Part shown: positions 1,166 to 11,096 of the stretch, in pieces
Layout: each line of letters starts with the position of its first letter
Numbering within the stretch: the stretch's first letter is position 1
Assembly: GCA_937873275.1 (NCBI GenBank)
Contig: CALMRC010000171.1
Span: 1 to 38,910 of the forward strand
Direction of reading: 5' to 3'
From: an uncultured Spirochaetota bacterium
Lineage (GTDB): Bacteria; Spirochaetota; Spirochaetia; Treponematales; UBA12059
Length of the DNA stretch: 38,910 bases
Program-made: the position numbers and the translations under genes
Notes under the pieces: model-generated
Seen by the model: only the letters and a program-made list of their open reading frames with translations
Databases searched by the model: none
Told to the model about the DNA's origin: nothing

Positions 1166-3226
1166 ATGGCGACCTTTGAGCGGCACGAAGGACGGAACCT
1201 TAAGGGAATCGACCCCGACGCCAAGGATCGGGACCTCGAGCAGTACGGAGTGTGGGTGAAAGCGGAACCCCAGGATGTCCTCGAAGAGCCCGATACCGAG
1301 GACGCCTCGCTCCTTTCGGAGCCGACGGAAGGGGCCGCCGTACTCGACGAATCCTTCCTGACCGACGAGGAGGAGGACTTCCTGGGCGCCGGCGGGTCCG
1401 CCGCCGGTACCGGGGAAGAGACGGACGACGTCTTCCTTTCCACCTCGGAGACGCCTTCCCTCCTAGAGGAAGAGCTCGCCGTTCCGGACCTGGACTCGGC
1501 GGACGCGGAGGATCTACCCCGGATTCCCGATATGGCGGAATTCGAGTCCCTCGAGGACCTGGGAGTTCCGATCGAGGAGTTCACCCCCGACGAAGCGTCG
1601 ATCAGCACCGCACGCGGTCCCTCCGTGGAAGAACCGGTGGATGTCTCCGAGTTCAGCCTGGACGAGGCCGAACCCGTGTTGGACGCGGGCACGGAGACGG
1701 ACTTCGAATCCCTCGACATCGATCTGAAGTTCGACGATACCCTCCCCCCCCGTCCCGAGGCTTCGGGCGGATCCGTCGGACGCTCCGCCCCGCCCGTGGA
1801 GGACGGATTCGAGACCGTGACGGATTTCGACGATTTCCTGTCCGGATCGGAGCCGGGCCCCTCGGCCGCGGAATTCGAGGCGCCCCGCCCCGCGTCTCCC
1901 CCTCCGCCCCGCGCGGAGTCCCTCTCGGATGCGGAGGAGTTCAGCCTGGATGACATCCCGGAGCTTCCGCCGGAAGCCCCCGTCGACGACCTCGCGGAGC
2001 TCGAGCGGGATCTCTCCGCCGGCGCCGCACGCACCCCCGCCCCCCGCCCCTCCCCCGACGCGTCCTCGGACATCCTCCTCAAGATCGCCGGCGAACTGTC
2101 CTCCATCAAGGAGGAGCTGGTTTCCCTGAAATCCCAGATCGCCGCCATGAAGTCCGCCGCCGGTTCCGAAGCCTCCGCGGAAACCCGGGAGCCCGAAAGC
2201 GGCAAGGCGGGCGGATTCTTCGACGAGGAGGAGGACGAGACGATCGCCCTTACCGGGGACGAACTGGACAACATCCTCAACACCGCGGAATTCTCCGAGG
2301 AAAGCGCGGAACCCGCCGCCGAGGTATCCGAGTCCCTGGAGGGACTGGAGGACCTGCTCCCGGAATCCGGGGACTATGCCGTCGAAGTCCCCGCGGAATC
2401 CGCCGCCGAAACCGGAATCGAGGAGCTTCGCCTTTCCGAAGGAGAGACGGAGGACGCGATGATCCCCGGGGACGAGTCGATATCGGCCCTGGCGGAGGAA
2501 GGCGTGGCTCCCCTGACGGAACCCCCCGAGGACACCTCCTATCTCGAGGAGGCCGAGGAGCTCCAGCTCGCCGGAGAGGAGGAGCTCCCGGAGGCTCCCC
2601 TCCTGGAACCCTCCCCGGAGGAACTGGACATCGAGGACCTCGTGGAAGAGCGTTTCGAGGAAGCCGAGGAACTCCCCCTCGCCGAGTTCGAGTCCGCCGA
2701 GGATCTCGAGTCCGCCGCGGATCTCGAGGAGGAGTCCGAGGAGCTGGAGGAGCTGACCCTGGAGCTGGACAGCGAGGAGCCTCCCATCGTCCTGGAAAAC
2801 CCGGAGAACATCAGTGTGCCCATCCCCGAGATCGAGGGGGAGGACTTCGGCGCCGAGGACACCGTCCCGGAATTCGTCGAGACCCTTCCCGAGGTCGAGG
2901 AGGTCGATGAAGCCGAGGAGGCCGCGGGTCTCGGGGAGATAACCCTGCACCACGAGGAAACCCCCGCGGCCGGCCGGGAGCCGCCCGCGGCTGCCCGGGA
3001 ACCGGAGCCGTCGGAGCCCGAGTCCCTCCTGGTCGAGGACCTCGATCCGGGAGAGGCCCGGAAGCCGGAACCGATCCCGAACCGCATCAAGGACGAGGTC
3101 CGCAGCGTCCTGGTCTACCTCGACAAGCTCCTGGAATCCCTTCCGGAGGAAAAGATCGAGGAATTCGCAAAATCCGATCATTTCGAGACGTACAAGAGGC
3201 TCTTCGAAGAGCTGGGGTTGGTGTAA
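1166..3226 (+). CDS. Large acidic, low-complexity protein, scaffold-like, function unknown
   Basis: 686 aa, extremely rich in Glu and Asp (roughly 30% by eye), with many Ala, Pro, Ser and Leu. No signal peptide or membrane helix is visible, so it should be cytoplasmic. Two short regions are not low-complexity. One is the N-terminus with EQYGVWVKAEPQDV at about 26-39. The other is the last 45 or so residues (from IKDEVRSVLVYLDKLL to the end), predicted helical. A helical stretch near 310-330 (ILLKIAGELSSIKEELVSLKSQI) could be a coiled coil. The architecture of folded ends joined by a long acidic linker suggests a scaffold or docking protein. ATG 1166 has a CGGAG ribosome site 5 nt upstream. 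It heads the operon with the frameshifted gene (3 nt downstream) and the two DUF115/Maf proteins. I do not recognise a named family. Confidence 0.75.
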   Translation: MATFERHEGRNLKGIDPDAKDRDLEQYGVWVKAEPQDVLEEPDTEDASLLSEPTEGAAVLDESFLTDEEEDFLGAGGSAAGTGEETDDVFLSTSETPSLLEEELAVPDLDSADAEDLPRIPDMAEFESLEDLGVPIEEFTPDEASISTARGPSVEEPVDVSEFSLDEAEPVLDAGTETDFESLDIDLKFDDTLPPRPEASGGSVGRSAPPVEDGFETVTDFDDFLSGSEPGPSAAEFEAPRPASPPPPRAESLSDAEEFSLDDIPELPPEAPVDDLAELERDLSAGAARTPAPRPSPDASSDILLKIAGELSSIKEELVSLKSQIAAMKSAAGSEASAETREPESGKAGGFFDEEEDETIALTGDELDNILNTAEFSEESAEPAAEVSESLEGLEDLLPESGDYAVEVPAESAAETGIEELRLSEGETEDAMIPGDESISALAEEGVAPLTEPPEDTSYLEEAEELQLAGEEELPEAPLLEPSPEELDIEDLVEERFEEAEELPLAEFESAEDLESAADLEEESEELEELTLELDSEEPPIVLENPENISVPIPEIEGEDFGAEDTVPEFVETLPEVEEVDEAEEAAGLGEITLHHEETPAAGREPPAAAREPEPSEPESLLVEDLDPGEARKPEPIPNRIKDEVRSVLVYLDKLLESLPEEKIEEFAKSDHFETYKRLFEELGLV

Positions 3227-3229
3227 GGT

Positions 3230-4113
3230 ATGGGTCTACTGGATAAGGCATCCCGCGGGCGCTCGACGCCCGCCCCCGTCCGGGGCGGCGGCCTGCTTAG
3301 CAAGGCCGCCCGGACCCGGCAGACTTCGGAGGAAAAAAAAAACTAGTCAGCCCGGATCTCGATGAGGTCCTGGGCGAAGTCCTGTCGGAAAGTCTGTCCG
3401 TTCCCTCGGACTATTTCCTTCCCGCCCGCCTGATCGCACTGCTCCGGGACCGGGCCGGGCTTCCGAACCTTCGCATCTTCCTGGAGGAACCCTCCGGTAC
3501 GGAACCGAGGGTGTTCGCGTCCATCCTGGATTCCCCGGACGAATCCTGCCGGAGCGGCTGCCTGCTGGGGCCGTATCGCCTGGAGGTTCCGGGACTCTCC
3601 GGCGCGGACCGCCTGCTCTCCCTCCTGGGGGCCTCCCTGGGAGCCCGGATGACCGCCTCCCGGCCGCCCTGCATGCACCGCGACCTTCCCCGGGAACGCA
3701 CGCCCGCGGAACTCGCGGAGGCCGTCTCCATCCGGTTCGAGGATTCCCAGGCCGGCTTCGCATCCCTCTGCGTCCTGGATCTCCGGCCGTTCCAGGACTC
3801 CGCCCTGGCCGCCTTCCCGTCCGTCCAGGCAGAATGCCTCCAGGAGGACCTCGCCCGGTGCCTGACCGCCTTCTTCGAAGCCGCGGGCGGATTGTTCCTC
3901 TGCGACTCCGGGGAATTGGTGGCCCTCATATGCGGTTCCCGCCCCGCGGATACCGGCCTTCTCCAGAGCCAGCTATCTAAATACATCCGGAAATTCGTAT
4001 CCCCCGCCGTGGACGCCACCGTCCGGATCCTCCGGTCCCGGGTCTTCGAGACCCCCCGGCCCGAGGACATGGAAACCTTCCTGGCGGATTGTTCATCCGG
4101 CCCGGCGGCGTGA
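3230..4113 (+). CDS. Uncharacterised protein split by an A10 frameshift site
   Basis: The zero-frame ORF from ATG 3230 encodes only 38 aa and stops at TAG 3344-3346. The stop follows directly on an A10 run at 3333-3342. Moving one base back inside this run opens a frame to 4113, giving a joined product of about 294 aa. The N-terminus carries two copies of a motif, GLLDKASRG (2-10) and GLLSKAART (21-29). The rest looks like a globular cytoplasmic protein with no recognisable domain. The gene starts 3 nt after the acidic protein stop, with no good ribosome site, implying translational coupling. The break could be a sequencing deletion (11 As restore the frame), real phase variation, or programmed -1 slippage on A AAA AAC. 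No gene name can be given. Coordinates span both frames. Confidence 0.65.
3333..3343 (+). other. A10 homopolymer with an A AAA AAC slippery heptamer before a stop codon
   Basis: In the zero frame the codons are GAG GAA AAA AAA AAC TAG. The last two sense codons with the preceding A form the canonical -1 heptamer A AAA AAC, followed at once by the stop. After a -1 shift reading resumes at CTA 3343 and stays open for 256 codons. Runs of this length also cause polymerase slippage and sequencing indels. Confidence 0.6.
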
Positions 4114-4144: not shown

Positions 4145-5662
4145 GTGACGAACCGTCGACTCCACTCCCGCTTCGACCCAGCCGGAGAGGCGGACCGATA
4201 TCTGGCCGCCTGCCTGGAAACCCGCCGGCCTTCCTGTCTCCTGGTGGTCGGCGGCGGCGAAGATTGGCTCTCGGAGGCCGCCCGGAAACGCCTTCCGGGC
4301 TCCTGGATCGTGTCCATCCAGCTGGATACCGCCTTCCGTGGAACCGAGCGCCCCGGGTCGGACCGACGGTGGTACCCGGATTCGGGGATCGGGCTGCGCG
4401 ACTACCTGGCCCGGGAGGCGTCCGGTAAGCTGGACGGAGGCGTCGCCGTCGTGTCCTGGCGACCTGCGGAATCGCTTTTCCCGGACGCCGCATCGAAGGC
4501 CCTCCGGGAGATCCGCGAAGCCCTGGAGGAGTTGACCTCCGACGCGGCCACGTCCCGGTACTGGGCCCGCCGCTGGATGGTCAACGCCCTGCGCAATTTC
4601 TTGTCCTCCGGGACCTACGTCCGTCTCGGGCCGGGTACGAGTCCCCTGGTCGTCGCCGCCGCCGGCCCAAGCCTGGAATCGTCCTTGGAAGCCCTGGAAT
4701 CCGTTCGAGGCTGGTTTCGGCTCTGGGCCCTCGCCTCGGCGGCGGGCGCCTGCCTTCGGCGAGGCTGGACGCCGGACCTGATCGTGTCCACGGATCCGGG
4801 AGCCTGGGCGGACCGTCATTTCGACGCGCTTCTCCGATCCCGGGAACCGCTTCCCTGCCCCGTGGCATTCCCGATCACAGCCCGGATCCCCCCGGCTGTC
4901 CGGGGCCGGCATCCCGTCCTCCTCCTTTCCCCGGGACAGGCCCCCGAGGAGGACTTGCCCGCCGCCGCGGGCCTTCCGGCCTGCTCCGTGCCATCCCGGG
5001 GTACCTCCTCCGCGGACGCCCTGGCCTTTGCCCGAACCACCACGTCCGGCCCCGTTCTAGCGGCCGGACTCGACATGGCCGCCCGGGACCTCCGGTCCCA
5101 TTGCCGTCCCTACGGCCTGGATCCCCGGATCCTGGCTCCGGAGCGAAGACTCAAGCCCGGCCTAACCCTGGTTTGGGACCGGGAAGTGCCCGGGTTCCCA
5201 GAACGACGGGGGGATTGGAGGCGGGGGCGGTCCTTCGACCTGTACGCGGGGGGACTCCTCCCGGAAGGGAGGCCTCCGATCCATCGCCTTCTGGCCTCCC
5301 CCGTTCCCGTGGCGGGCACGATCCCCGTGAATCCGGAGGAATTGCCCTCTCTGCTGCCCGATCCGTCCCCGGCCTTGCCCTTCGACCTGGAGGCGTTTCC
5401 GGCGCCCGAGGCTCCCCGAAGGTCATCCCTGGCGAGGGAAGCCCTGGATGCCTGGGAGTCCGAGGCCGCCGAGGCCGCGTCCGGCCGGACCGGACTCCCG
5501 ATCCCGTCCCGTGCCCGACGCCTGCTGTACGCCCTGGGCGGAGCCGAGGCGGCCGCCTTTCTCGCGGAAGCCGCCCGGGGCGTCCGGGAGGAATCCCTCG
5601 CCCTCCGCGCCCTCAAGGCCCTCCGGATCTCCGCCGCACACCTTCGGGAGCTGGTCCCATGA
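4145..5662 (+). CDS. DUF115/MptE-like motility-associated (Maf) protein, first copy
   Basis: 505 aa with the DUF115 (MptE-like, Maf) core: a Rossmann-like segment VVAAAGPSLESS with GPSL at 174-177. This is followed by the aspartate-containing strand GWTPDLIVSTDPGAW. Proteins of this family transfer nonulosonic-acid-type sugars to flagellins in several motile bacteria, or resemble the archaeal pterin pyrophosphokinase MptE. A flagellin-glycosylation role is inferred from the family. This copy is more divergent than the next: the usual GxDLAF-type strand reads AGLDMAARDL. GTG 4145 is taken as start, but the only good ribosome site (GGGAGG, 4126-4131) lies 13 nt away. It would fit an ATT at 4139 or CTG at 4142 better. 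It overlaps the second copy by ATGA. Confidence 0.7.
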   Translation: MTNRRLHSRFDPAGEADRYLAACLETRRPSCLLVVGGGEDWLSEAARKRLPGSWIVSIQLDTAFRGTERPGSDRRWYPDSGIGLRDYLAREASGKLDGGVAVVSWRPAESLFPDAASKALREIREALEELTSDAATSRYWARRWMVNALRNFLSSGTYVRLGPGTSPLVVAAAGPSLESSLEALESVRGWFRLWALASAAGACLRRGWTPDLIVSTDPGAWADRHFDALLRSREPLPCPVAFPITARIPPAVRGRHPVLLLSPGQAPEEDLPAAAGLPACSVPSRGTSSADALAFARTTTSGPVLAAGLDMAARDLRSHCRPYGLDPRILAPERRLKPGLTLVWDREVPGFPERRGDWRRGRSFDLYAGGLLPEGRPPIHRLLASPVPVAGTIPVNPEELPSLLPDPSPALPFDLEAFPAPEAPRRSSLAREALDAWESEAAEAASGRTGLPIPSRARRLLYALGGAEAAAFLAEAARGVREESLALRALKALRISAAHLRELVP

Positions 5663-7332
5663 ACGGCATACTCCAACGCAACCTGCTGGCCCTGTCCGCC
5701 TCGGATCCGGACCTGGCGGACCGCGTTTCCAAGGCGCGTCCGGACCCGGCGGTCCTCCTGGAAACCGCCCGAAGCGGGGCCCCCGTCCCGGTCCTCCGCC
5801 GGGAGTCCGGGGCCCTGGCCCTCCATTCCCGGATGGACCCGGAGAGGGAGGCCGACCGCCTCGCGGAAGCCTATCCCGGTGGAGGTTTCATCGTGTTCCT
5901 GGGACTGGGCGCGGGCTACGGTATCCGACCCTTCCTGGAACGTCCGGCGACGGGAGGAGTGCTCGTCGTCGAATACTCCCTGGGGCTCCTGCGGGCCGTC
6001 CTGGAGCTGTTCGACCTGGCGCCCGTGCTCTCGGACCGCAGGGTGCGCCTCCTGGCGGATCCGGACGAGGCCACCCTGGAGCGAGCCATCTTCGAGGCCT
6101 ACATACCGATCCTGACCGGGGATCTGGCGACGGTCCCCCTCCGGGCCCGGGTGGACGCCGATCCGGACCTTTTTTCCGAGGCCGTGGAGGCGGTGCGCCG
6201 GGTGATCTCCCGGGTGTCCGACGACTACAGCGTCCAGGCCTTCTTCGGCCGGAGGTGGTTCTCCAACACCGTCCGGAACCTCTACGCCGCGGAAAAGCCC
6301 GTCCGGCCGATGCCTCCCATCCGGGAGGCGGTCGTCACCGCGGCGGGCCCCTCCCTGGACGACCTCATTCCGGATCTGGAAAGGATGCGGAGGGACCGTT
6401 TCCTGATCGCCACGGACACCAGTCTGGGCGCCCTGCTGGCCCGAGACATCCGGCCGGACGCCGTGGTTTCCATCGACTGCCAGCACATATCCTATTATCA
6501 TTTCCTCACGCCGGTGCCCGGGGAGGTTCCCCTGGTCCTGGACCTGGCCTCCCCCCCCTCGGTGGCCCGGCGGGCCCGGCGTATCCACTTCTTCTCCTCC
6601 GGGCATCCCTTCTGCCGCTTCGTGTCCGCCCACTTCCGGCCCTTCCCCTCCCTGGACACCTCCGGGGGGAACGTGACCCACGCCGCCGTATCCCTGGCCG
6701 AGACCCTCGGGGCGCGGCGGATCTTTCTGTACGGGGCAGATTTTTCCTATCCTCAGGGGGCGAGCTACGCCCGGGGAACCTACATCCACCGGTACTTCCG
6801 GATCCGCTCGAGCCGGAAGACCCCCCAGGAGGGGCTGTTCGCGTCCTTCCTGTACCGCAACCTCCAGGTGGACCGGGAGCGGGATCCCGACGGGACCTTC
6901 CGGTACGTCACCAAGCCCCTCCAGGCCTACCGGCAGAGGCTGGAAGGCTTCGCGGCAACGTTGTCCGCGGAACTGGTGCCCGTACGGGGACGGGGCGTGG
7001 AAATACGGGTACCCGCCGCCTATTCCGGAGTCCGGCCGGAACCCTCCCGCTTGAGCCTCTTCGCCCCGGGCAGGGCTTCCTGCTCGGCTCGGGAATTCCT
7101 GGAAACCTACCGGGACGGATTGGCCGGACTGCCGGAGCTGGCGCCGCCCTCGATCCTGACCCTGCGGGGACTCCCTCCGGAGCGGCAGGACCTTTGGACG
7201 ACCCTCCTGCCCGCCGCGGCGGCCCTGCGGCGCGGACTGGGGGAAACCCAGATTCCGGCGCGGGAACTCATGGAGAGGACCCGGACCTGGGCCCTGGAGA
7301 TCGTATCCGCCGAACTGGAAGCCGGCCGCTGA
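5659..7332 (+). CDS. DUF115/MptE-like motility-associated (Maf) protein, second copy
   Basis: 557 aa. An N-terminal domain (about 1-170) has a second nucleotide-binding-like strand, FIVFLGLGAGYGIRPFL, as in many Maf proteins. The DUF115 core begins near 225 with VVTAAGPSLDDLIPDL (GPSL at 230-233) and continues with DIRPDAVVSIDCQHISYYHF and the conserved RIFLYGADFSYPQG. Family knowledge points to sugar transfer onto flagellin in the cytoplasm; the donor cannot be told from sequence. The start ATG overlaps the stop of the first copy (ATGA) and has GGGAG 9 nt upstream. The frame extends upstream to 5101, but that part is a shadow of the first Maf gene. It is the last gene of the operon and is convergent with the lipoprotein at 7335. 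It is more complete than its neighbour, so it is the likelier active enzyme. Confidence 0.8.
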   Translation: MNGILQRNLLALSASDPDLADRVSKARPDPAVLLETARSGAPVPVLRRESGALALHSRMDPEREADRLAEAYPGGGFIVFLGLGAGYGIRPFLERPATGGVLVVEYSLGLLRAVLELFDLAPVLSDRRVRLLADPDEATLERAIFEAYIPILTGDLATVPLRARVDADPDLFSEAVEAVRRVISRVSDDYSVQAFFGRRWFSNTVRNLYAAEKPVRPMPPIREAVVTAAGPSLDDLIPDLERMRRDRFLIATDTSLGALLARDIRPDAVVSIDCQHISYYHFLTPVPGEVPLVLDLASPPSVARRARRIHFFSSGHPFCRFVSAHFRPFPSLDTSGGNVTHAAVSLAETLGARRIFLYGADFSYPQGASYARGTYIHRYFRIRSSRKTPQEGLFASFLYRNLQVDRERDPDGTFRYVTKPLQAYRQRLEGFAATLSAELVPVRGRGVEIRVPAAYSGVRPEPSRLSLFAPGRASCSAREFLETYRDGLAGLPELAPPSILTLRGLPPERQDLWTTLLPAAAALRRGLGETQIPARELMERTRTWALEIVSAELEAGR

Positions 7333-7334
7333 TC

Positions 7335-8960
7335 CTACTCGAACCGTACCCTCATGAAGGAGCCGCCCCGGAACCCGTAGGTCTTCCGGAGGTACGCGTC
7401 CAGGGCATCCGCCTTTGCCCGAAAGGCCGGCAGGGCAGCTTCCAGGTCCGCGAGGATGCCGGCGGTCCGGTCCGGGTAGGACTTCGCGAGCCGGGCATAG
7501 GCCACGTCCTTGAGCCAGGATTCCAGCCGGGACGGGGACTGCTGGACCAGATAGGCCTGGAGCTCGTTGTAGGAGAGATAGGCGTCGCCGGGATCGTAGT
7601 CCCGGTTGGACAGGAAGACGTTCCAGAACCTTCGTTCCTCCGGTCCTTGGGACCGCCATAGGGTCCGGGCGAGGTTCCGGTATGACTCGTCCAGAAAGAA
7701 GAGGGCGTGGGATGCCTCGTGGTTCAGGAAAAGATCTCGCAGGTACGAGGTGGACTCCCGGGCTATGGAGATGATCGCCCCGGTCCCCGGCCGGATCCGA
7801 CCGCCCTCCCGGACCAGGATTCCCCGGCGCTCCAAGATGCCGAGCAGTTCGGTCTCCGGAACCGAAAGGGGGAAGGAGGTCCTCTCAGCCTTGTCGAAAA
7901 AGGCCGCCAGGTCCTCCGCCCGGTAATCGTGGGCGTTCCAGCCGTGGAGCCGAACGATCTCCGTATCCGGAGCGAGCCGACCCCGGAAGCCCTCCTTCTC
8001 CACGAAAAACGCCAGGCGCTTGAGGTAGGCGTCCTGGACCGCGTAGTCCCGGAAGTCGAACACCAGGCAGTTTGGGAAGGCGTCCCACCGATAGAGGGCG
8101 TAGGGTCGGGAAGGATCCTCGGGGGGGGGCAGGGCCAGGACGACGGCAAGATCCACCGGCAGGGGATCCGGCGTCTCCGGGGCCGGCAGGACGGCGACGG
8201 AACGGACCGCGTCCGGCTCCGATTCCACGATCACCGCGGAATGCCCGCCCAGGGCCCCCAGGGGCACATAGGCCGGGCCCGCCGGAGCGGGATCCAGGAC
8301 GGCGGATCGTCCGCCTTCCGTCCGTACCCGGAGGCGGACGCCGTCCGACTCTATCCGGACTACGGGACGGTCCCCGGGTCCGTAGGGATGCTCCACCCGG
8401 ATGGAATCGATTCCGGCTCCCGAGTCCCGGGCCAGGGAGGCTCCCCGGGAAAGGCGGACCCCGTCCTCCAGCCGTTCGAACCCGAACGCCGCGGTCCGGA
8501 TCTCCAGCCCTAGGACGCGCAGGGAGGACGAGCCGGAGCCGGATCCGTCCGGGAGCGCAGAAAAGCGCAGGGAGGCCACGGCGATCCCGTCCGGAAGGGG
8601 AACGACCCACCGGAGCCGGCCCGGTCCCCGGGCCAGATCCGCGGAAAGGACGGGGGCCGCACCTCGTCCCTCCGGAAGGACCTCCAACCGGGCGGATCCC
8701 GAAAGCTCGTACCGGATCTCCAGGGCGGGCCGGATCCCCGGGACCGGGACGGGCGCATCCGGAGTGTACCGCACGGAATCCCGCCCACCCCCGCCTACGG
8801 CATCCTCCCGTCCCGGTGGCAGCCGATGGTCGGGGACCAGGTCGTGTTCGAATCCGTCCCCGTCCCGAAGGGTGAACGGCGCGGGGGGGATCGGGGAGCA
8901 GGAGGCCAGGGCCGCCCCCAGAAGGACCGCGAGGGACGCCCGGAACGGGGTCCGGCTCAT
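7335..8960 (-). CDS. Lipoprotein with an HExxH metallopeptidase signature
   Basis: 541 aa. The N-terminus MSRTPFRASLAVLLGAALASC is a lipoprotein signal peptide with lipobox LASC, so Cys21 should be lipidated. Residues about 60-260 look like beta-rich, secreted domain sequence. The C-terminal part contains FLNHEASHALFFLDESYRN, an HExxH zinc motif with H414, E415 and H418. A candidate third ligand is E466 in SYNELQAYLVQQ, as in gluzincin peptidases. I infer a surface or periplasmic zinc peptidase. The family is not one I can name, and its substrate is unknown. Start ATG 8960 overlaps the stop of the upstream gene by ATGA, so the two are co-translated. A longer frame upstream to 11267 is spurious because it runs through other genes. 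Confidence 0.65.
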   Translation of the reverse strand: MSRTPFRASLAVLLGAALASCSPIPPAPFTLRDGDGFEHDLVPDHRLPPGREDAVGGGGRDSVRYTPDAPVPVPGIRPALEIRYELSGSARLEVLPEGRGAAPVLSADLARGPGRLRWVVPLPDGIAVASLRFSALPDGSGSGSSSLRVLGLEIRTAAFGFERLEDGVRLSRGASLARDSGAGIDSIRVEHPYGPGDRPVVRIESDGVRLRVRTEGGRSAVLDPAPAGPAYVPLGALGGHSAVIVESEPDAVRSVAVLPAPETPDPLPVDLAVVLALPPPEDPSRPYALYRWDAFPNCLVFDFRDYAVQDAYLKRLAFFVEKEGFRGRLAPDTEIVRLHGWNAHDYRAEDLAAFFDKAERTSFPLSVPETELLGILERRGILVREGGRIRPGTGAIISIARESTSYLRDLFLNHEASHALFFLDESYRNLARTLWRSQGPEERRFWNVFLSNRDYDPGDAYLSYNELQAYLVQQSPSRLESWLKDVAYARLAKSYPDRTAGILADLEAALPAFRAKADALDAYLRKTYGFRGGSFMRVRFE

Positions 8961-10478: not shown

Positions 10479-11096
10479 ATGCGAACGCCTCGATTCATCC
10501 TCGCGGTACTGCTCGTTTCGATCCTGTCGCAGGGCGCCTTCGCCCAGGCGGAGCCCCCCGCACCGGAGACTCCCCCGACGGACTTCAACGCCAATCCCTA
10601 CGTCCGGGGCGAACAGACCCTGTCCTTCAACCTGGGCGCCTTCTTCCCGGTCACGTTCGTAAACCTGTACGCCGGCGGGACGGCGGACACCAACCTCAAG
10701 ATCGGAGCCGGTTTCGGGATCTCCTACAGCTACGTCGTTGCCCCGGGCTTTTCCGTCGGCGGAGAGATCGAGGGAGCGACCTGCGGAACCACCGCGGAGT
10801 CCTCGTTCTTCATGGTGCCCTTCACCGCCAAAGCCTCCTGGTACTTCGTGAAGATGCCATTCGAGATCGTGCCCTCCGTGTCCGCGGGCCTGGCCATCGT
10901 CCGGTACCAGGGCTACACGAACTTCAACCCCATCCTCAAGGGCGGGGCCGCCTTCCTCTGGCGCCAGAGCTCCTCCTGGAGCTTCGGTCTGGACGCCCAG
11001 GCCTGGACCGTCTGGCAGTTCTACGGGGACATCCCCCAGGACAACCGACTGGGGATCTTCCTGGATACCCGCCTGACCGCGGTCTACCACCTCTAG
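10479..11096 (+). CDS. Outer-membrane beta-barrel protein, Tp0733/OmpW-like
   Basis: 205 aa with a signal peptide MRTPRFILAVLLVSILSQGAFA, probably cleaved after AFA. The mature part shows alternating hydrophobic and polar beta-strands with aromatic girdles. Examples are EQTLSFNLGAFFPVTFVNLY, LKIGAGFGISYSYVVAPGFSVGGEIEG, ASWYFVKMPFEIVPSVSAGLAI and LDTRLTAVYHL. It ends in a hydrophobic strand, as expected of an eight-stranded barrel. The opening YVRGEQTLSFNLG is what I recall from treponemal Tp0733-type OmpW-like proteins. It should sit in the outer membrane; transport of small hydrophobic molecules is the family guess. GGAGG lies 4 nt before the ATG. The next gene, a lipoprotein, starts 10 nt later with its ribosome site overlapping this stop codon. 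Confidence 0.75.
   Translation: MRTPRFILAVLLVSILSQGAFAQAEPPAPETPPTDFNANPYVRGEQTLSFNLGAFFPVTFVNLYAGGTADTNLKIGAGFGISYSYVVAPGFSVGGEIEGATCGTTAESSFFMVPFTAKASWYFVKMPFEIVPSVSAGLAIVRYQGYTNFNPILKGGAAFLWRQSSSWSFGLDAQAWTVWQFYGDIPQDNRLGIFLDTRLTAVYHL

Follow-up and report, generated by a model that had tools for sequence, protein, structure and literature searches.

In Escherichia coli, dnaX undergoes a -1 ribosomal frameshift with an upstream Shine-Dalgarno sequence and a downstream stem-loop. Beyond dnaX and some secretion genes, we know of few examples of conserved programmed slippage in ordinary bacterial cellular genes. In Thermus thermophilus dnaX, slippage takes place at an A-run and the other frames are shut by nearby stops (PMC5009743); dnaX genes made of two ORFs were also found by GeneTack (PMC3711429). 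Frameshifting is known as well in chlD, including that of Spirochaeta thermophila, where it was described as ribosomal, with a stimulatory structure (PMC9227772). Here, we describe a spirochaete gene whose reading frame is broken at a run of ten A's (A10). From comparative sequence evidence, the break is probably a case of programmed transcriptional slippage, which would yield a 38-aa peptide and a 294-aa protein.

The gene lies in the window, the whole 38.9 kb stretch of DNA analysed here, which comes from a 3.6 Mb draft genome in 200 contigs; among named relatives, the closest are two MAG contigs, JAKLDN010000009.1 and JAAYUR010000178.1. The features of the locus are as follows.

1166..3226, + strand: upstream gene X, encoding an acidic protein of 686 aa that matches no Pfam or NCBIfam family
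3230..3346, + strand: zero-frame ORF of 38 aa containing two GLLxKA motifs
3328..3332, + strand: GGAGG, Shine-Dalgarno-like, abutting the run on its 5' side; relatives lack a conserved copy
3333..3342, + strand: A10 run, proposed slippage site
3337..3343, + strand: A_AAA_AAC heptamer inside the run, the rival ribosomal site in the zero frame
3344..3346, + strand: TAG stop of the zero frame
3343..4113, + strand: ORF of the -1 frame, with 256 codons and a stop, evolving under purifying selection
3343..3684, + strand: GAF-like domain (boundary approximate; from models and fold comparison)
3685..4110, + strand: degenerate GGDEF-like domain without the GGDEF motif (boundary approximate; from models and fold comparison)
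4145..5662, + strand: Maf-type gene 1, MptE-like, PF01973
5659..7332, + strand: Maf-type gene 2, PF01973 and weak PF20157, a paralogue of Maf-type gene 1

The zero frame starts at ATG 3230-3232, three bases past the stop of gene X, and ends at TAG 3344-3346 after 38 aa (MGLLDKASRGRSTPAPVRGGGLLSKAARTRQTSEEKKN, C-terminus EEKKN). Positions 3333-3342 are exactly ten A's followed by a C, and the zero frame reads GAA AAA AAA AAC TAG from the run to the stop. The -1 frame is open for 256 codons, the first being CTA 3343, until a stop at 4111-4113, and the two frames joined encode 294 aa. The initial annotation had reported these coordinates, the A10 run, TAG 3344, the 256-codon frame and the joined length, all of them exact on re-reading. 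Both coding frames are under purifying selection: estimates of dN and dS among the three species of the genus give dN/dS ratios of about 0.21-0.27 in the -1 ORF and about 0.34-0.46 in the 34 codons 5' of the run.

Because the -1 product diverges fast, the conserved end of gene X was used as the anchor to locate the locus in other genomes. The C-terminal ~50 residues of X (window 3056-3223) are strongly conserved across the class, and the remainder is acidic and of low complexity. Of the 394 genomes of the order, 352 contain the anchor, as do 228 of the 395 sampled from the class. Searching with the -1 product itself retrieved two other species of the genus, with an identical break, and, more distantly, a member of a different genus within the family-level clade. 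Within this clade the frame is broken at an A9-A10 run in 18 of the 19 readable members, representing 9 of 10 genera. Sixteen loci carry A10 and need a -1 shift, two carry A9 and need +1, and one (G008) carries A10 in frame; the +1 cases (G002 and G020) are A9 runs in draft MAGs and could be one-base assembly errors. It had been suggested that close relatives be searched for the same run, and its recurrence in the clade supports a programmed frame change.

Across the class, a run of A9-A13 occurs early in the gene at 66 of the 184 loci read. It breaks the frame at 47 loci from 17 family codes, with -1 needed in 45 and +1 in two, and a further 19 loci are in frame; most of these genomes are draft MAGs, and the counts take related species separately. 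In-frame loci comprise G008, seven members of one f3 genus, f10, two of f12, f16, f27 and one of f5. No run was scored in f2, f4, f33, f35, f36, f38, f40, f42 and most of f3, f5 and f41, where the gene is mostly uninterrupted; some loci with runs (e.g., L257, L265 and L279) went unscored for want of a start fitting the start pattern used. The frame phase changes between lineages (G425, G415 and G008 are in frame) while the run persists. In iterated profile searches, 145 of 149 products, interrupted and uninterrupted, join one protein family, and the -1 products are homologous to uninterrupted proteins from families without a run. Since the products form one family across broken and unbroken genes, the long product is the normal one, and the break is a recurrent and selected feature. 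Brucepastera parasyntrophica (G379; complete genome NZ_CP084606.1, locus L030) has an A9 break and an apparent second break further on, because of which it is not a clean case and may be decaying or mis-sequenced. In genus g74 of f3 (L014, L023, L080, L087, L091 and L095), in-frame runs of A10-A12 directly precede a second GLL motif. Their position differs somewhat from that of the window's run, and these genomes are richer in A10 sites generally.

The -1 ORF matched nothing in Pfam or NCBIfam; its relatives gave a few weak GAF and GGDEF matches, and a sequence-profile search against the PDB also gave weak matches. AlphaFold2 models built on an alignment of 42 relatives have mean pLDDT values of 93.5 (for the relative L311) and 93.0 (for the -1 ORF of the window), and in both a GAF domain comes first and a GGDEF-like domain second. 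The GAF part of L311 aligns with solved GAF domains with Z up to 13.6 (3ci6, 152 residues, rmsd 3.9). The second half of the window's protein aligns with the GGDEF domains of diguanylate cyclases with Z of about 9 over 130-138 residues (rmsd 4.2-5.2), as with 4yme (136 residues, rmsd 4.7). The top Foldseek match spanning both domains was PelD, a c-di-GMP receptor. None of the 42 aligned sequences has the GG(D/E)EF active-site motif in the hairpin, so diguanylate cyclase activity is unlikely. The RxxD motif, the inhibitory site that binds c-di-GMP, was not seen conserved in the aligned region, where mean column identity is only 18%. The run precedes the globular part and follows a linker in which the motif MGLLxKA occurs, often more than once; the length of this linker 5' of the run varies from about 10 to 65 codons.

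The initial annotation had placed the gene in an operon with Maf proteins. The Maf neighbours are real, with PF01973 scores of 38.7 and 97.8 bits for the two downstream genes (cut-off 34.6), but the gene is not itself a Maf gene, as it encodes a GAF and a degenerate GGDEF domain. An ORF at 5448-7661 was considered as the second Maf gene and discarded as a spurious frame, the real gene being 5659-7332. Some Treponema and termite-gut relatives lack the GAF-GGDEF gene and have a Maf-like gene, judged by eye, directly after X. Given the Maf neighbours and this X-Maf arrangement, the protein may be loosely tied to flagellin modification, and it might, more tentatively, serve as a ligand-sensing or scaffold partner of the X and Maf genes of the cluster. 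Elsewhere in the window, positions 10479-11096 encode an outer-membrane beta-barrel protein of the TP0733 family (NCBIfam NF047328, E 1.1e-44).

The run is rare in its genomic setting. A pattern search found two A10 sites on both strands of the 3.6 Mb genome, one in the present gene and one in dnaX, against about 0.06-0.17 expected from the composition of the window, and in the window the A10 is the sole run of A or T of at least seven; on these counts it exceeds chance. The same census in 20 relatives found few A10 sites, the present gene being regularly among them. GC-rich relatives mostly have one to three, including the present gene where its run is A10, and four genomes (G007, G018, G613 and G631) have none outside it. 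In G425 and G415 the single A10 of the genome lies in the present gene, in frame, and G008 has two, in dnaX and in the present gene, the latter in frame. In the source genome, the dnaX A10 (L120:1203-1212, contig C14) leaves tau in frame, with stops following KKKP in the -1 frame and VIPG in the +1 frame. Among the dnaX genes of the clade, the A10 has close stops in both other frames in 9 of the 10 genomes having the run; G003 dnaX has an A10 without them. This is the arrangement known from Thermus dnaX (PMC5009743; PMC3711429), and it speaks for polymerase slippage.

The run is also constrained in length and codon content. Its length is exactly A10 in 40 of the 47 out-of-frame cases and at least nine in all 47, and no break at an A7 or A8 run was found in the gene set. 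All 88 whole Lys codons within these runs are AAA, unlike the many genomes of the set in which AAG is the dominant Lys codon. The probability of this by chance, computed from local usage, is log10 P = -30.7 with relatedness ignored; as these are related species, the resulting ~10^-31 makes the case look stronger than it is. Mapped onto a gene tree, the presence or absence of the run requires 12 changes, compared to 41-50 in 20 shuffles; the tree (FastTree) has many weak and long branches, and is used for this contrast and not for its topology. By several sequence measures, the run itself is under selection.

Slippage of RNA polymerase on the A10 (transcriptional realignment) would produce mRNAs that differ in their number of A's. 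Those with the templated ten A's would encode the 38-aa N-terminal peptide, and those with one extra A, or two fewer, would join the frames into the 294-aa protein, consisting of the N-terminal GLLxKA region, the GAF-like domain and the degenerate GGDEF-like domain. Translation in the third frame would stop six codons 3' of the run. Early closure of that frame would be expected if mRNAs of variable length are made, and it is of consequence only in that case. Beyond the run, the median distance to a stop is 5 codons in the zero frame, against 16 under the null, and 8 in the third frame, against 20. We infer that polymerase, rather than the ribosome, is the shifter, that both products are made and that their ratio matters.

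The main competing explanation is -1 programmed ribosomal frameshifting on A_AAA_AAC or A_AAA_AAG within the run, perhaps with some polymerase slippage, which we regard as unlikely but serious. The window does have a heptamer of the X_XXY_YYZ type in the zero frame at 3337-3343, with GGAGG just 5' of the run, the base after the run is G in 33 of the 47 broken genes, and 45 of the 47 require the same -1 direction. The last point tells against slippage, as a single direction of shift among homologues was proposed as a sign of ribosomal frameshifting (PMC3711429). A further point against slippage is the inevitable presence of A_AAA_AAN heptamers. However, such a heptamer takes six or seven A's, which explains neither the missing A7-A8 breaks nor the 40 runs of exactly ten. 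The run begins in all three codon phases across loci, and the third frame closes early too. No stimulator is common to the broken loci: a shared downstream hairpin was not found (mean z -0.22, SE 0.19), and upstream Shine-Dalgarno-like sites occur at only 9 of 47 broken loci, with 4.7 expected. Strong hairpins, a point in favor of the ribosome, do occur in the 60 bases 3' of the run in 7 of the 18 clade members tested (G004, G005, G009, G010, G015, G016 and G017; loci L035, L019, L034, L047, L037, L048 and L041), where these segments, with z of -2.2 to -3.5, are much more stable than the rest of the gene, and in these members they could stimulate slippage or frameshifting. Two further observations count against slippage. 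The run was lost or never present in many families, and the in-frame genes of G425 and G400 hold one other frame open for 126 codons, so that a useful short product is not evident there. Of the slippery-site options raised initially, a programmed frame change is thus supported, and polymerase slippage is favored over the A_AAA_AAC heptamer because the run is long, conserved in length and rare, because both other frames close soon after it and because no ribosomal stimulators are shared.

Other explanations fit the comparative data poorly. It was initially suggested that the gene might be phase variable, with replication slippage altering the length of the run and turning the gene on or off within a population. 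Homopolymer runs are mutable, the Maf neighbours make switching plausible, and relatives do show lengths of 9-13. Random switching predicts about one third of genes in frame, yet only one of the clade's 19 members is in frame, 16 being out of frame with a run of exactly A10. The run has also persisted across deep branches, its phase being specific to each clade. Phase variation is therefore disfavored, and we consider it very improbable. Still less credible are an assembly error, a decayed gene, or two ORFs with re-initiation at the second. In their favor, the genome is a draft in 200 contigs, homopolymers are prone to errors, and the zero-frame stop sits at the start of the -1 ORF. Against error and decay, the identical break is found in many independent genomes, and dN/dS is well under 1 on either side of the run; this recurrence and these ratios rule out both an assembly error and a pseudogene. 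In particular, the earlier proposal that one A is missing from the assembly is rejected because independent assemblies from many genera share the break. As for re-initiation, the -1 frame of the window offers no possible start codon until 56 codons downstream, a position inside the folded domain, and among the 47 homologues 34 lack a start codon less than about 30 nt from the stop of the zero frame.

Programmed slippage is already known, and the present gene is apparently a new case of it: no earlier description of it as recoded was found in the literature searched. The case is unusual in its breadth across a class and in the phase flips around a preserved run: the run is kept in one gene across a divergence to below 20% protein identity, and the frame phase flips between lineages. 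Gene callers are likely to split or truncate the out-of-frame versions. Together, the out-of-frame, in-frame and run-less genes form a natural series with which to ask why a signalling protein should be routed through slippage. In GC-rich spirochaete genomes, where A10 sites number only one to three, slippage genes should be easy to spot. It is conceivable, if doubtful, that the A10 is an ancient, class-wide slippage switch that sets the ratio of a free GLLxKA peptide to the GAF-GGDEF protein, each with a function of its own; this ratio would respond to conditions affecting polymerase slippage and thereby tune the X-Maf (flagellin-modification) cluster.

Other broken genes with an A10 were seen in the spirochaete genomes. 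A chlD-like gene (an AAA+ half and a VWA half, by eye) has a -1 break at A10 near base 1501 of L335, L356 and L358 (genomes G622, G574 and G607, respectively). At L332:1501-1510 (G431) a -1 break occurs at A10 followed by CTGA, with the zero frame ending EKKN*, and the long 3' part of that gene resembles an LCP (LytR-CpsA-Psr) domain, judged by eye.

As to its product, the present gene resembles PelD in domain order and fold, and differs from it in its low sequence identity, in the lack of a visible conserved RxxD and in its gene neighbourhood. chlD, too, is a gene known to be frameshifted in a spirochaete, and its junction in f43 also has an A10, although the protein is a different one. It shares with E. 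coli dnaX the A_AAA_AAG/C heptamer and the -1 direction, but has no conserved Shine-Dalgarno sequence or stem-loop, and its run extends beyond the heptamer and is kept at ten. The closest resemblance in layout is to the dnaX genes of Thermus and of the GeneTack set: an A9-A10 run in coding sequence, nearby stops, and a short and a long product, here proposed from sequence. As in dnaX across species, in-frame and out-of-frame layouts both exist. Unlike Thermus dnaX, however, this is another gene, and its run sits at the start, near codons 10-65, instead of far into the coding sequence.
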